From contig RFHZ01000168.1 in the NCBI GenBank assembly GCA_003696125.1, positions 1-8,018 on the forward strand: a stretch of 8,018 bases of DNA, given 5' to 3'. The position numbers were made by a program, and so were the translations under genes. Every line of letters starts with the position of its first letter. Within the stretch, counting starts at the first letter, position 1. The notes under the pieces were generated by a model, which did no database searches, was not told the DNA's origin, and worked only from the letters and a program-made list of their open reading frames with translations. The stretch comes from Nitrospinota bacterium (GTDB lineage Bacteria; Tectomicrobia; Entotheonellia; J063). This document shows, in pieces, positions 214 to 7,374 of the stretch.

Positions 214-1398
214 TTACCAGTGCCATGTTCCCGGTTCGATCTCGATATACGGGTGCCGGGCGGCCACCTCCTCATCCAGCTCCACCCCCAGCCCCGGTTT
301 CGTGGGGGGGATGATATACCCATCCTGCCACTGGATCGGCTCTTTCAGTATCTCCGCGTGAAACCCACCCCAGGTCTCGATACTCTCCTGGATCAGGAAG
401 TTGGGGCTACACGTATCGAGCTGGATGTTTGCCGCACCCTCGATCGGACCACAGTACAGATGCGGGGCGATCTGGGCGTAGTGCGCCTCTGCCATGCCGG
501 CAATGGTCTTGGCCTCCAGGATCCCTCCCACCCGTCCGAGAGCCATCTGGAGGATGGCGGCTGCCTGCTTCTCCAGTAATTCGGCAAACTCGTACACCGT
601 GGACAACCGCTCCCCGGTGGCGATGGGGATGCTGGTCGCCTGGGCCACTCTGGCCATCTCCTTGACATTCTCTGGCGGTACCGGTTCCTCAAACCAGAGC
701 GGATCGTACTTCTCCAGGCGTCTGGCCAGGCGGATGGCGCTGTGCGTCGTCATCTGCCCATGGGTCCCGATCAGGATGTCACACCGGCTTCCTACCGCTT
801 CGCGCACGCTTCGTACCACCGCTTCCGCATTCTCCAGGGCCTCCAGGGAGAGGTCACGCGGGTCAAGGGGGGACATCAGATGCCGGATGGGATCCAGCTT
901 GATGGCCGTGAAGCCCTGCTGCACGTAGGCAGCAGCCCTGGTAGCAGCCAGGTCTGGGGTCGTATGCACGGCGATGCGATCAACCGTGTCTCCTGGGGCT
1001 TCGTACAGGTAGGTGTACGCCCTGAGCTTTTCGTGGTACTGGCCACCGAGCAGGTTGTAGATAGGCTGGTTCAGGGCCTTGCCGATGATGTCCCAGCAGG
1101 CCATCTCAAAGGCGCTGATCACCCCCATCTTGGTCAGATCCGGATGCTGTCCATACCCGCTGCTGTACAGGAGGCGACACAATTTCTCGATCTGAAAGGG
1201 ATTCGAACCGATGACGAACCGCTCCCCCATGTCCTCCAGCAACCGGGTAACGGTGTGGGGGTGAAAGGGCACCCCATAGGCCTCACCGAACCCCTCTATC
1301 CCGTCATTCGTGATGAGTTTCAAGAACACCCAGTTCCGTCCGCCGTGATGGGGAGGAGGATTCCCCACCACGTACGTCTTCAGGTCTGCGATCTTCAT
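214..1398 (-). CDS. Mandelate racemase/muconate lactonizing-type enolase superfamily enzyme (probable sugar-acid dehydratase)
   Basis: This 394-residue protein has the family's usual length. An N-terminal capping domain (about 1-125) precedes a TIM barrel and a C-terminal capping tail with PGLGVELDEEVAARHPY (368-384). Visible active-site elements are K167 in AIKLDP, H213 in GTHGQ, E237 in WFEEP, E263 in GERL and H313 in IAPHLYCGP. In this superfamily such residues bind Mg2+ and abstract the alpha proton of a carboxylate, commonly dehydrating sugar acids such as galactonate. The exact substrate cannot be read here. Two positions differ from D-galactonate dehydratase and mandelate racemase: G211 where the first metal-binding Asp is expected, and A286 where the His-Asp dyad Asp is expected. 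The start is supported by AAAAGGAG 10 bases upstream; the stop is TAA. The enzyme is presumably cytosolic, with no signal peptide. It stands alone on its strand, divergent from the AAA ATPase gene. Confidence 0.93.
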   Translation of the reverse strand: MKIADLKTYVVGNPPPHHGGRNWVFLKLITNDGIEGFGEAYGVPFHPHTVTRLLEDMGERFVIGSNPFQIEKLCRLLYSSGYGQHPDLTKMGVISAFEMACWDIIGKALNQPIYNLLGGQYHEKLRAYTYLYEAPGDTVDRIAVHTTPDLAATRAAAYVQQGFTAIKLDPIRHLMSPLDPRDLSLEALENAEAVVRSVREAVGSRCDILIGTHGQMTTHSAIRLARRLEKYDPLWFEEPVPPENVKEMARVAQATSIPIATGERLSTVYEFAELLEKQAAAILQMALGRVGGILEAKTIAGMAEAHYAQIAPHLYCGPIEGAANIQLDTCSPNFLIQESIETWGGFHAEILKEPIQWQDGYIIPPTKPGLGVELDEEVAARHPYIEIEPGTWHW

Positions 1399-1462: not shown

Positions 1463-1622
1463 CTGCACCAGGAGGGAGGGGTGAGCCGCAGAGGAAAGGC
1501 GTCTGGGAGCGGAACGATTCACACCGGTGGCGATCCAGGAGGAGAAGAGCCCGGTAGAGAGATCCCTCCTGCGTAGCATGCCTGCAGTATATCCTCTTTC
1601 GTGGTGACCTGCAACACCAAAA
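1463..1622. repeat. Dispersed intergenic repeat, copy A
   Basis: This segment matches 7204-7374 in the same orientation. The core 1509-1591 aligns without gaps to 7260-7342 with 78 of 83 bases identical, and all five differences are transitions. An exact 30-base block runs 1520-1549. The left part (1463-1508) also matches, apart from a 10-base insertion in copy B; the right flank matches weakly to about 1622. The core contains the palindrome CACCGGTG (1522-1529), a potential stem CAGGAGG (1536-1542) with CCTCCTG (1565-1571), and GCATGC plus CTGCAG (1576-1587). No terminal inverted repeats or target duplications typical of an insertion sequence are evident. It fills the divergent spacer between the enolase-type and AAA ATPase genes. 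It could be a REP/MITE-like element or a shared functional RNA or control element. Confidence 0.85.
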
Positions 1623-1693
1623 CTCTTATCCGCAAAGAACGCCAAGGAAACCCGGTCTCCAGATTTTGGCTTTCAAGGCCCGGGAAACGGCGC

Positions 1694-1731
1694 TTGACAT
1701 TTTACCACTTGATATATTTACCGTGTGGTAA
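1694..1731 (+). promoter_or_regulatory. Candidate promoter with overlapping inverted repeat upstream of the AAA ATPase gene
   Basis: A perfect TTGACA -35 hexamer lies at 1694-1699. An AT-rich GATATATTTA tract follows, offering a weak -10 (TATTTA, 1715-1720, 15-base spacer). Overlapping it, TTACCAC (1702-1708) and GTGGTAA (1725-1731) form a perfect 7-bp inverted repeat with centres 23 bases apart, near two helical turns. That spacing suits a dimeric repressor operator; the regulator is unknown. The ATG follows 24 bases later. Confidence 0.5.
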
Positions 1732-1755
1732 GTAAACATCACGGAGAGAAGGAGT

Positions 1756-3474
1756 ATGCTGAACTACCTCTATCCCGCCGATGAGCGAGCCCTGTTCACC
1801 GATAGGGAGTATCTCTTGGGGCTGCTGGAGATGTGTCGCTCCGAACTGGAAGCCGGCCGACGTAAGCACCTGGCCCTCATCGGCCTGCGTCGCATCGGCA
1901 AAACCCTCCTCCTCAAAGAGTTCCTCCTCCGCCTCCTGCAACGGGCCAACACTTCTCCATCCGTCCTCCCTCTCTACCTCGACCTGCAGCGCATCGGACT
2001 CTCTCCAGAGTTTTTCGCCCTCGAATATGTCGGTGCTACGCTCTACTGGTTCCAGACCCGGGGTCGGGAACGACCAGACACTCACACCGATCCCGCCGCC
2101 CAACTGCGCCTGGCCACCACCCTCGGCAAGCCGCAGACCCTCGACGCCCTCCTGCAATTGCATCAGGCGCTACGGGAACACCCCATCCCCCATCATCGCC
2201 TGCTGGAGCAGGCCTTCGCCTTCCCTGAAATCCTGGCCACCGAAACCGGCACCCGTTTTCTCATCATCCTGGACGAGTTCCAGGAAATCACCCGTCTTTC
2301 CAACTACCCCCAGGTGGATGACGTCCTGGAGATCTTCCGCGCTGTCCTGCAGACCCAATCCCGGGTGTCTTACATCGTTGCCGGCTCAGCCATCAGCTTC
2401 ATGGAACGCATACTCCACCACGCCCAGTCCCCTCTCTTCGTCCACTTCCGGAGTGAATCGGTCGGCCCCTTTACCCGTGAGGATACGGTGCAACTGGCCG
2501 GTAAGATCCTCGGAGATCGAACGCTCCCGGCAGACGCCCTGCAGACCCTCTTCACCTGGACCTCTGGTCATCCCTTCTATGTCTACGCTGTGGCCGAGCG
2601 GGCCAGAGAAATGACCCTGCTTTTCCAGCGGGAGGTAGATGACCAGCTGCTGCGCGAGGCCTTTGTCCTGGAAACCCTCTCCAGTACAGGACGCATCTAC
2701 AACCTCTGCCGTTACGTGGTCGAGGAATCCATGGCCCAGGCACGAGGTCAAACCCTGCTACGCTTGGTGCTGCAACTCCTGGCTCAGAGCCCTGCCCCCC
2801 TCACCCTCACCGAACTCGGTCGCCGCCTGAAGCGTGCCTCCGGTGTCACCCGTAACCTGCTCAATCGCCTCATCGAGGTGGATCTGGTGGTCCAGCGAAA
2901 CGGGGCCTTTGACCTGCGAGACCCTGTGCTCAAGGTCTGGCTGGCCTATTTCCATGCTGGAGTGGAACTACTGGCCATGCCCCGCCGGGAGCTCCTGGAA
3001 CACCTGGTTACCGACATGAGCGAACGCTTCCAGCGGGTCAGTTTGGAACTGGGGTTGGCCAGGGAGAGTCAGGTACGGGAACTCATGGCAGCGTTTCACG
3101 GCCAGCGCGTCCCTGGTGAGTGGTTCGGTCGGTCCGGTTCTTTCCAGCTCCCCACCTTCCACCGCATCACGCCTTACCAGAGTCGTGATGGCCAGGTGGA
3201 ACTGGATGCCGTGGCCAGTGGGGATGCCCTCTGGGTGGTCGAGATCAAGTGGAAGAACCAGCCTGCCAGCCGGGCCGATCTGGAGCGGTTTCTGACCCGT
3301 GTCCATCGGGTCCAGGCCGACCTGCCCGGCACGCCGCACGCCTGCTGGTTCATCGCCAAAGCCGGTTTCAAGGACTCTGCCCTGCGCTTTGGCCGGCAGA
3401 AGGGGATCCTTCTCAGTACCCCTGACGACCTGCAACAGCTTGCGGAGCGGCTGAGGGTACGGTTTGCGAAGTGA
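1756..3474 (+). CDS. AAA family ATPase with winged-helix and C-terminal PD-(D/E)XK-like domain (COG1672-type)
   Basis: This 572-residue protein has an N-terminal ATPase domain. Walker A is GLRRIGKT (43-50), Walker B is LIILDEF (169-175, D173/E174), and a sensor-like VAGS lies at 208-211. About residues 335-396 read as a winged helix, ending in DPVLKVWLAYF. The C-terminus contains ELD (D484) followed by VVEIKWKN (E496, K498), the spacing of a PD-(D/E)XK nuclease-like fold as in the DUF234 region of archaeal-type ATPases (PF01637/COG1672). The biochemical role of these proteins is largely unknown, and I infer only ATP-dependent action, perhaps on nucleic acid. An in-frame TAA at 1729-1731 blocks longer starts. 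ACGGAG at 1741-1746 is the better-spaced ribosome binding site, since AAGGAG ends only one base before the ATG. The stop is TGA. The gene converges on the cyclase gene with a 31-base gap lacking a clear terminator hairpin. Confidence 0.9.
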   Translation: MLNYLYPADERALFTDREYLLGLLEMCRSELEAGRRKHLALIGLRRIGKTLLLKEFLLRLLQRANTSPSVLPLYLDLQRIGLSPEFFALEYVGATLYWFQTRGRERPDTHTDPAAQLRLATTLGKPQTLDALLQLHQALREHPIPHHRLLEQAFAFPEILATETGTRFLIILDEFQEITRLSNYPQVDDVLEIFRAVLQTQSRVSYIVAGSAISFMERILHHAQSPLFVHFRSESVGPFTREDTVQLAGKILGDRTLPADALQTLFTWTSGHPFYVYAVAERAREMTLLFQREVDDQLLREAFVLETLSSTGRIYNLCRYVVEESMAQARGQTLLRLVLQLLAQSPAPLTLTELGRRLKRASGVTRNLLNRLIEVDLVVQRNGAFDLRDPVLKVWLAYFHAGVELLAMPRRELLEHLVTDMSERFQRVSLELGLARESQVRELMAAFHGQRVPGEWFGRSGSFQLPTFHRITPYQSRDGQVELDAVASGDALWVVEIKWKNQPASRADLERFLTRVHRVQADLPGTPHACWFIAKAGFKDSALRFGRQKGILLSTPDDLQQLAERLRVRFAK

Positions 3475-3505
3475 TATCCAGACCTTGCTCCAGGGAGGGA
3501 TTCTT

Positions 3506-6500
3506 TTACGTCAACTCCGCCAGCAACGCCCTGGCCTCCTGCAGGTCTCTGGTCTCAAATCCTTCCGTAAACCAGCCATAGATCGGTGCCAGCAACTCCC
3601 GCGCTTCTGCACGTTTCCCTTGCTGTTGCCACAGCCGGCTCAGACTCATCACTGCCCGCAACTCCAGCGATTTGGCCTGCTGGCGGCGGGCAATGTCCAG
3701 GGCCTGCCGGAAACAGGTTTCTGCCTCTTCGGCAGGGGCAGGGCAAGCCCTGCCCGCAATGGGCGCAGCATGTAGCTCTCCTACGGCAGCGGATTGCTGC
3801 AGGAGCAACTCCCCCTTGAGCCGATACAGCTCCGCCTCCCAGAAACGCTCACCCGTCTCCTCCACCAGAGCCAGCGCCCCGGTCAGCGAACCGAGTCCCT
3901 CCCCTGTCCGCCCCGCTTTCCCGTATGTCTCGGCCAGGCGGGAAAGATGATGCGGCACCACCAGATTCGCCCCGGTGCTCTGCCAGGCGTCCAGACCTTC
4001 CTGTATCTGTGCTATCCCCTCTGCTGTCTTTCCCTGCTCGACCAGCGCCCCTCCCCGATCCACAACCCCATGTGCCAGCCACTGGGCAATACTGTGCTCG
4101 GTAGAGAGGACAATATTTGCCTCTGCCAGCTCCAGCCCTCTCTGGTGCTCACGACGCAGGTAATGGACAGTGGCCGCAATGCTCAGGGCAAAGGCCAGGC
4201 TGAAGGGCTGGGAGAGCTCTTGAGCCTGGTTGAGCGCCTCATAGATTGTATGCCGGGCCTGATCCGGATAGCCAATCAACCAGAGGGTCCAGGCCGTATA
4301 GAGCTGACACACCACTCCAGGATCGGCTCCATAGAGGAAAGCCAGAGCACGATGCTGCTGGCGATCGTAGAGCGTGATCCCCGGCTCCAGGTAGTTTTGG
4401 GCAGGGAGAAGTTCTCCCCGGAAGAAGAGGGTCGTCCCCATGACGCGGTGCGCCTCTACGAGGAGAGCAGGGTCTTGTAGCCGTTGGGCCAGAGCAAAGA
4501 GTCGCTCTCCGAATTCACAACTCCTCCCTAACTCTCCCTTCAGCAGATGCCAATTCCAGAGTCCCCGCAACACCAGGAAGAGCTGGGGGCTTTCTTCGAG
4601 GTGCTGGCATAGCTTCCAGGCGCGGGTAAAAGCTTCTTTCACTTCCAAAGATCCATAGCCTTTGGTCGCGATCAAGGGCACGCCCAGAGTGATTTGCAGG
4701 GTGAGTTCCTGTTGAATGCGCTCCGGAGTATCCGGCAGGGTTTGCAGCACGGCCAGCCCCCTGGCCAGGTGAGCGATCGCTTCTCGATGAGCCGAGCGCT
4801 CGATTGCCTGCTGGCCGGCCTGCTGCCAGTAGGGAAGAGCCTGGGCGTTCAGCCCGGCCTCCGTGTAGTGATGCGCCACCAGTTCCGGCTGGGTCTCTAC
4901 CGTCTCCGGAAACCGGGCTTCCAGGGCCTGGGCAATCTGCTGGTGATACTGTTGCCGGGTGCTCTTGAGCAAGGACTGATACGCCACCTCCTGGATGAGC
5001 GCATGTTTAAAGCGATAATTCGCCTGCGGGAGGAATCCCTGCTGGTAGAGAAGTTCTGCTTCCACGAGCTGCGCCAAGGCGTGTTGCAGGGCGGTCTCCT
5101 CTAGAGGCGACACGGTCTGAAGGAGGGTATAGGAAAACTGGCGGCCGATGGTGGCGCCCAGTTGCGCGATCCCCTTCACCGCGGCTAACCGGTCCAGTCG
5201 TGCCATCAACGAATCGTGGAGGGTCGTCGGAATAGCCAGGGGCGGTAAGGGGCCTGTCAACACATACTGCGCTCCGTCTTCTCTTACCAGACCAGATTCC
5301 AGCACCATCTTGGTTAATTCTTCTACAAAGAGGGGCACGCCATCCGTCTTGGTCACGATCTGGTCCAACACCGCCGGAGGGAGGGTTTTCCCTCGGGTCA
5401 GTCGTTTCACCATCAGGGTGGTCTGCGGCCGGGTCAACCGCTGCAGGGTGATCGGGGTCAGGTGGGCTCGTCCTGGCCATGGGAAGACAAATCCTGGCCG
5501 ATAGGTGAGCAGCGTCAATATCCGGGCAGTGGGCCCCTGATCGACCAAGAGACCGAGCAACTCCAACGTGGAGGGATCTACCCAGTGCAGATCCTCTACC
5601 ACCAAAAGCAGTGGTTGCTGGGCTGCCCGCTGCAAGAGAATGGTGAGGAGCGCCTGTAAGGTCTGTCTGCGTTGTTGTTCCGGAGAAAGCGGCAGCGGAG
5701 CATACGCCTCGCCGAGTGGCAGGGAGAGCAGGGTGGCAAACAGGGGGACCATCTGGGGGAGGGGTAAGCCATACTGGACCAGCCATCCCTCGAGTTTGTG
5801 TAATTTGTGGGTGGGGGATTCCTCTGGGGCAAACTGGAGCACCACACGCTGCAGGAGCTCAATGAACGGATACAAGGCACTGTGCTGATGATAGGGGGAA
5901 CACTGGCATGGCGTCAACCAGGCCTGGGGATCGTCGGCAACATGTTCTTTCAGCACCTGCACCAGCCGCGATTTGCCGATCCCGGCTTCCCCACTCACCG
6001 TGACAAGCTGCCCGTGTCCCTCCCTGACCTGCTCCCAGCGCTCCAGCAAGAGCCCGACCTCTTGCTCGCGTCCGACCAGGGGCGTGAGTCTCGTAGTGCC
6101 GATGACCTCCAGGCGACTGCGTGCTGCACTCTCTCGCACCACGTGATACACGTCCACCGGCTGGGCGATGCCTTTCAGGACCTGTGTCCCCAGCGGCTCA
6201 CAGGCAAAAAAGCCTTCGATGAGTCGATGGGTGGCGGCACTGATCACCACCCGGTCCGGCATCGCGATCCCTTGCAACCGTGCGGCAATGTTTGGCGTCT
6301 CCCCCAGGGCTAACTGCTCCCGTTTGACTCCACTCCCCACCGCGCCGACCACTACGGACCCGGTATGAATCCCGATCCGCACCGGGAGCGGAAAAGGCGT
6401 CGCTAGCTGGGAGAGGGCTTCGACAATGCCCAGTCCCGTGCGCACCGCCCGTTGCGCATCGTCTTCGTGGGCGTGAGGATAGCCAAAATAGACCAGCACC

Positions 6501-6976
6501 CCATCCCCCAAGTACTGCGCGATATGCCCATCAAAGCGCTGGATCACGGCGGTACAGGTCGTATGATAGGCCTGGAGCAAGGCGCGTAGCTCTTCCGGAT
6601 CGAGCTGGCTGGCCAGCTTCGTCGAATCGACCAGATCACAGAAAAGCACCGTGAGCTGGCGGCGTTCCGCCTCCGGAGGAGAAGGGTCTGGGGAGAGGCC
6701 TTCCACCGGGACAGGATATTTTGCCGCACTGACAGGTTGTGCCTCGGTCTGAGAAGGTGGACAGGCAGGCTGTGCACTCACTTCCGCACCACCGGTCCAT
6801 ACCAGCACCCGGCCCTCCTCATCTCTGGCCAGTTGCTTGGCGTAGATCATCTCCTCCCTGACCGCTTCCAGGTACTCGTCATCCAGGTGGAACCGGAGCT
6901 TGAGTGCACGATAGGAGACGCGCTGCTCCTGCCGAAGCAGCGCAATAATCCGGGACAGGATCTCGTCAAACGTCAT
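3506..6976 (-). CDS. Class III nucleotidyl cyclase-AAA ATPase-TPR multidomain signalling protein
   Basis: This 1156-residue protein is assembled from four parts. Residues 1-62 look like a winged helix. A class III cyclase domain (about 104-281) has metal-binding D114 (LFCDLVDST) and D158 (YLGDGV), plus transition-state N229 and R233 (NIAAR). T227 lies in GETPN, where class IIIb adenylyl cyclases have Thr instead of the purine-recognising Asp. The catalytic set therefore looks intact, and cAMP is the likeliest product. An AAA_16/STAND-like ATPase follows (about 293-560), with Walker A GEAGIGKS (329-336) and Walker B LLLVVEDLHWVD (456-467). From about 690 to the end are helical TPR-type repeats, probably for partner or ligand binding. 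There are no membrane segments, so the protein should be cytosolic. The start is supported by an AAGGGAA site on the minus strand, 5 bases before the ATG; the stop is TAA. Residues about 1060-1082 hold an unusual insertion encoded partly by a palindromic repeat. Stimulus and targets are unknown. Confidence 0.93.
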   Translation of the reverse strand: MTFDEILSRIIALLRQEQRVSYRALKLRFHLDDEYLEAVREEMIYAKQLARDEEGRVLVWTGGAEVSAQPACPPSQTEAQPVSAAKYPVPVEGLSPDPSPPEAERRQLTVLFCDLVDSTKLASQLDPEELRALLQAYHTTCTAVIQRFDGHIAQYLGDGVLVYFGYPHAHEDDAQRAVRTGLGIVEALSQLATPFPLPVRIGIHTGSVVVGAVGSGVKREQLALGETPNIAARLQGIAMPDRVVISAATHRLIEGFFACEPLGTQVLKGIAQPVDVYHVVRESAARSRLEVIGTTRLTPLVGREQEVGLLLERWEQVREGHGQLVTVSGEAGIGKSRLVQVLKEHVADDPQAWLTPCQCSPYHQHSALYPFIELLQRVVLQFAPEESPTHKLHKLEGWLVQYGLPLPQMVPLFATLLSLPLGEAYAPLPLSPEQQRRQTLQALLTILLQRAAQQPLLLVVEDLHWVDPSTLELLGLLVDQGPTARILTLLTYRPGFVFPWPGRAHLTPITLQRLTRPQTTLMVKRLTRGKTLPPAVLDQIVTKTDGVPLFVEELTKMVLESGLVREDGAQYVLTGPLPPLAIPTTLHDSLMARLDRLAAVKGIAQLGATIGRQFSYTLLQTVSPLEETALQHALAQLVEAELLYQQGFLPQANYRFKHALIQEVAYQSLLKSTRQQYHQQIAQALEARFPETVETQPELVAHHYTEAGLNAQALPYWQQAGQQAIERSAHREAIAHLARGLAVLQTLPDTPERIQQELTLQITLGVPLIATKGYGSLEVKEAFTRAWKLCQHLEESPQLFLVLRGLWNWHLLKGELGRSCEFGERLFALAQRLQDPALLVEAHRVMGTTLFFRGELLPAQNYLEPGITLYDRQQHRALAFLYGADPGVVCQLYTAWTLWLIGYPDQARHTIYEALNQAQELSQPFSLAFALSIAATVHYLRREHQRGLELAEANIVLSTEHSIAQWLAHGVVDRGGALVEQGKTAEGIAQIQEGLDAWQSTGANLVVPHHLSRLAETYGKAGRTGEGLGSLTGALALVEETGERFWEAELYRLKGELLLQQSAAVGELHAAPIAGRACPAPAEEAETCFRQALDIARRQQAKSLELRAVMSLSRLWQQQGKRAEARELLAPIYGWFTEGFETRDLQEARALLAELT
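3736..3755. repeat. REP-like palindrome embedded in frame in the cyclase/TPR gene
   Basis: GGGCAGGGCAAGCCCTGCCC has perfect 9-bp arms around a two-base AA centre. It encodes residues about 1075-1081 (GRACPAP) on the minus strand, within a longer linker between a helix ending LLLQQ and the next starting EAETCFRQAL. Similar GC-rich palindromes are common intergenic repeats in several environmental bacteria (recollection). The frame is preserved. The full insertion probably extends to about 3790. Confidence 0.7.
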
Positions 6977-7203
6977 TGCTGTTCCCTTTATGCTATCCTT
7001 CCAGTTCTGGTTGCTCTCCCACCGGCTGCTCGCGTGCAGCAGAAACGGGAAGGAAACGCCGCTTCTCTATTCCCAGAGGGTACTGTCCCGTACACCCTTG
7101 CTACAGGAACAGCTCTGGCCACGGCTGCCGTGTATCACTGCCGAACAACTGGTGAATCGATGCGTTCCCCCTTCTCTGGGGACGGGTGATGTCGCTGGAC
7201 AAC
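6977..7203. other. Intergenic spacer upstream of the cyclase gene, no gene seen
   Basis: No credible coding region is visible here. The minus-strand half nearest 6976 should carry the cyclase promoter, but no good -35/-10 pair stands out. Small hairpin-capable sequences occur: GCTGC/GCAGC at 7025-7040, AGGGTAC/GTACACCCT (2-base bulge) at 7077-7098, and CACGG/CCGTG with a 3-base loop at 7120-7132. None is followed by a T-run of a classical terminator. Confidence 0.4.
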
Positions 7204-7374
7204 CTGCACCAGGAGGCAGGGGAAAGCCGCAGAGGAGCGGTGTCTGGAAGCAGAGGGAGGCGGAACGATCCACACCGGTGGCGATCCAGGAGGAGAAGAG
7301 TCCAGTAGAGAAATCCCTCCTGCGCAGCATGCCTGCAGTATACCTGGTTTGATGATGCCCATGCAACGTCAAAA
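7204..7374. repeat. Dispersed intergenic repeat, copy B
   Basis: Second copy of the repeat at 1463-1622, in the same orientation 5741-5751 bases away. Its core is 7260-7342. The stem arms CAGGAGG (7287-7293) and CCTCCTG (7316-7322) are identical to copy A; three of the five core differences fall in the loop between them and two outside. It carries an extra 10 bases at about 7251-7260. Like copy A it lies in a divergent promoter region, here between the cyclase and flavoprotein genes. Homology fades beyond the shared TGCAAC at 7362-7367 and nearby A-run. Confidence 0.85.

Follow-up and report, generated by a model that had tools for sequence, protein, structure and literature searches.

An intergenic stretch of about 160 bases occurs twice in the 8018-base DNA analysed here (the window), which is the whole of contig RFHZ01000168.1 (C479) of assembly GCA_003696125.1 (4.18 Mb in 990 contigs, 94.8% complete, 8% contaminated). 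Just these two copies are present in the assembly, and each of them is located between divergently oriented genes (Table 1). The repeat is perhaps best read, tentatively, as a promoter/operator region that was duplicated locally and in the same orientation.

Table 1. Features of the window discussed in the text.
Feature	Position	Strand	Evidence or remark
Sugar-acid dehydratase, enolase superfamily (MR_MLE)	214..1398	-	Pfam and NCBIfam
Copy 1, duplicated intergenic stretch	1463..1622		138/160 ungapped columns identical to 7204-7374
Copy 1 core, best conserved	1509..1591		94% identity, transitions only
Promoter-like site toward dehydratase gene, TTGCAG-17-TATACT	1586..1614	-	consensus match only
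AAA-type ATPase with HTH_IclR-like segment	1756..3474	+	Pfam
Guanylate/adenylate cyclase - AAA_16 ATPase - TPR protein	3506..6976	-	Pfam; NCBIfam TIGR03903 below cut-off
Copy 2, same orientation as copy 1	7204..7374		10 extra bases at 7250-7259
Copy 2 core, best conserved	7260..7342		counterpart of 1509..1591
Promoter-like site toward cyclase/ATPase gene, TTGCAT-18-TATACT	7337..7366	-	consensus match only
FAD-binding oxidoreductase (fumarate reductase/SdhA-like), truncated by contig end	7575..8018	+	Pfam and NCBIfam

Extent and Genomic Setting of the Two Copies

The alignment confirmed the gap-free match of the two cores (78/83 identical positions) described in an earlier sequence-only reading of this DNA, and revealed that the homology is wider than the core, covering about 160 bases. 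Apart from substitutions, the copies differ by two indels, one of 10 bp (inserted in copy 2) and one of 1 bp, and the right edge of the homology fades gradually, without a sharp end. The pair (D1 plus D2) ranks top among the direct repeats of the window. In BLAST searches, copy 2 was matched with an E-value of 3e-39 by a 138-base query and 1e-30 by the 83-base core; thus, the repeat is not a chance similarity. That all 160 columns align as a single block, interrupted by just two indels, argues for descent by duplication, not for operator sites that became alike by convergence.

Gene calls and the alignment bear out that both copies lie in divergent spacers and in the same orientation, copy 1 between the dehydratase and AAA ATPase genes and copy 2 between the cyclase/AAA_16/TPR and FAD oxidoreductase genes. 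The ATPase and cyclase genes enclosed by the copies are convergent, and the copies are therefore direct repeats around a block of about 5.7 kb. The dehydratase, ATPase, cyclase and FAD genes have no obvious shared pathway. The dehydratase is gluconate/galactonate dehydratase-like, yet it scores under the NCBIfam equivalog cut-offs. The cyclase/AAA_16/TPR protein resembles TIGR03903 (TOMM kinase/cyclase fusion) but lacks the kinase part at the N-terminus of the profile, and has a paralogue on another contig of the assembly (C948, L021) with 54% identity over 510 residues. The promoter region of the ATPase gene harbors an operator-like inverted repeat, TTACCAC-N16-GTGGTAA (1702-1731), which is the sole occurrence of the pattern TTACCAC-N8..18-GTGGTAA in the assembly.

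Copy Number and Search for Relatives

BLAST searches with the 138-base query and the 83-base core, as well as a profile built from both copies, detected just the two copies in the 4.18-Mb assembly, all other matches having E-values of at least 0.01. The sequence-only reading had proposed a mobile REP/MITE-like family and had itself named a genome-wide count of two as refuting it; with this count, the proposal is not supported. The third profile match (C965, E-value, 0.0125) aligns poorly and lies inside a 563-codon open frame, which by eye we take to be gamma-glutamyltranspeptidase-like, and was put down to chance.

Within the same class, four genomes were searched, with no match below an E-value of 0.04. 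In a set of about 93 genomes from further afield, one 26-base match appeared (G072; E-value, 7e-4); it spans only a purine-rich stretch and is taken as chance. The element was not found in 18 genomes encoding a dehydratase closely related to the flanking one, a search that had no positive control, nor was the exact 24-mer ACACCGGTGGCGATCCAGGAGGAG found in GTDB contigs, a collection that may omit the window's own genome. The searched plasmids and phages contained no copy; a match of a viral contig to a 19-mer is isolated and located inside an apparent coding sequence, and was rejected, as the similarity stops there.

For 80 dehydratase relatives (63-82% identity), the DNA fetched contained no FAD gene and no copy of the element, and no relative was found with the same gene order that could serve for an empty-site comparison. 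As the element is missing upstream of the orthologous dehydratase in every relative, purifying selection between species is not shown. The dehydratase relatives span Chloroflexota, Desulfobacterota, Proteobacteria, Poribacteria and one Bathyarchaeota bin, and this wide range of phyla suggests that the gene may have spread broadly by horizontal transfer. One genome (G002) carries two nearly identical dehydratase homologues (L061 5998-7165 and L062 4227-5394), both of which are read in two frames, as if frameshifted.

Divergence of the Core and the Flanks

Overall divergence between the copies is 14%, in addition to the 10-bp indel, and it is distributed unevenly: mismatches occupy 7 of 46 columns in the left part, 5 of 83 in the core and 10 of 31 in the right part. 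With the core as chosen in the sequence-only reading, the difference between the core and the remainder (17/77) is supported by Fisher's test (p 0.005), whereas a window scan gave p 0.03 and segment scores p 0.06-0.10 for the unevenness. All five core differences (1519, 1550, 1553, 1561 and 1574) are transitions, as had been noted before, while the 17 differences in the flanks comprise 10 transitions and 7 transversions, a contrast that does not decide the matter (p 0.13). Two sequences provide little power, and the contrast between core and flanks is best regarded as borderline.

Promoter-like Site and Possible Shared Control

The two copies were scanned for sigma-70-like sites that occupy equivalent positions in the alignment. 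The best conserved one, TTGCA-17/18-TATACT, matches the consensus at 8 of 12 positions in both copies, and lies at the core's right-hand edge, on the minus strand; its score was reached by 3.25% of 2000 column shuffles. A standard promoter scan finds nothing because the -35 box is weak (3/6), and no comparable conserved sigma-70-like site was detected on the plus strand. In addition, each copy contains three CAGGAGG boxes, the first two being 67 bp apart in copy 1 and 77 bp apart in copy 2. The conserved site and the CAGGAGG boxes favour a promoter/operator region, none of them strongly.

According to the preferred reading, a stretch of about 160 bp with a promoter/operator would have been duplicated locally, in the same orientation, and would now stand on either side of the ATPase/cyclase block. 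Each copy would carry a leftward promoter, that of copy 1 driving the dehydratase gene and that of copy 2 the cyclase/ATPase gene, and the 83-bp core just downstream of the start would bind a common regulator, whereby the two genes would share some control. The 10-bp indel corresponds to about one helical turn and would leave the CAGGAGG boxes facing the same side of the helix, a suggestion that draws on one event. Among known systems, one of the closest is the duplication of promoter/operator regions in neighbouring gene pairs. The present case is like it in that direct repeats of short length, with a better-conserved core, precede nearby genes, and differs in that no regulator or site motif was recognized.

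In both copies, TATACT is also followed at a distance of six bases by an ATG, an arrangement like that of leaderless transcripts. A shared 24-codon frame, MLRRRD[LF]STGLFSSWIATGV[ND]RSA, opens at that ATG, before the 10-bp indel shifts the frame; of the five changes, three are silent in it, which is not significant. The core might then be a conserved leader transcribed from the leftward promoter, with a common leader peptide or RNA controlling the dehydratase and cyclase/ATPase genes, but the chance of this is very slight. Coding on the minus strand was rejected, as the shared frame is broken at the indel and has no match to a protein family.

Alternative Explanations

The repeat had been described as structured, and a conserved regulatory or RNA element had been suggested. 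Folding does not support the description: z-scores against dinucleotide shuffles range from -0.80 to +1.33 for both copies and both strands. When the contig is cut into 83-bp windows, 13% of them contain a perfect inverted repeat of 7 bp (loop, 3-30), as do 6-7% of core shuffles. The CAGGAGG/CCTCCTG arms are indeed free of changes, and the loop between them holds three, as previously stated; the 14 unchanged arm bases say little, because only five changes occur in 83 bases. A structured leader RNA or attenuator common to two transcripts is an unlikely explanation. It would agree with the unbroken CAGGAGG/CCTCCTG stem, with the three adjacent hairpins that the plus-strand core could form, with two of the five changes being U-G to C-G exchanges inside those stems, and with the RNAalifold consensus pair 76-87. 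However, in addition to the z-scores, the plus-strand minimum-energy folds differ between copy 1 and copy 2, and about 1/4 of random five-transition sets would leave the three hairpins intact by our own estimate. With two sequences, RNAalifold gave no pair inside the core that had changed on both sides, and just two such pairs outside it. Rfam searches gave no family match on either strand, even at E-values up to 10, and a riboswitch or T-box on either strand was likewise rejected. Of the suggested alternatives, the RNA element accordingly lacks thermodynamic, covariation and Rfam support, while a regulatory element may stand in the weaker form of a duplicated promoter/operator region.

A small non-autonomous mobile element (REP/REPIN/MITE-like) of which two copies are left would fit the short length, the intergenic location and the partial internal dyad symmetry of the repeats, but is most improbable. 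REP elements and REPINs, which are associated with RAYT transposases (PMC2817692; PMC3116915), are similarly intergenic and have a short internal inverted repeat. They are usually found in >100 copies per genome (PMC2817692), whereas the present repeat has two, 5.7 kb apart and in the same orientation; it is about 160 bp long, has no terminal palindromes, and shows no palindromic unit with a stable hairpin, z being near 0 and 7-bp inverted repeats common in the contig. The similarity to MITEs is that of a short non-coding repeat, and again the low copy number and the gradual edges differ. In place of long terminal inverted repeats, only CTGCA/TGCAG is found near the edges, with homology running beyond it on the right, and no flanking target-site duplication was seen in the sequence around the copies. 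The lack of copies in plasmids and phages also argues against mobility.

A more serious competitor, nearly as likely as a duplicated promoter region, is a neutral local duplication of intergenic DNA that decays without function, the higher core identity being due to chance or to a gene-conversion tract. The overall divergence with its 10-bp indel, the segment-score tests, the lack of the element in any relative, and folding no better than that of shuffled sequences are all consistent with it. On the other hand, the promoter-like hexamers are kept within a diverged flank, divergent spacers host both copies, and the core has changed by transitions only, unlike the flanks, the last difference being not decisive.

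The main value of the analysis is negative, in that a candidate repeat family or RNA is struck off. If neutral, the repeat would be a routine short duplication. If functional, it would couple the regulation of a sugar-acid dehydratase gene with that of a cyclase/ATPase signalling protein, in a bacterial lineage that has received little study.
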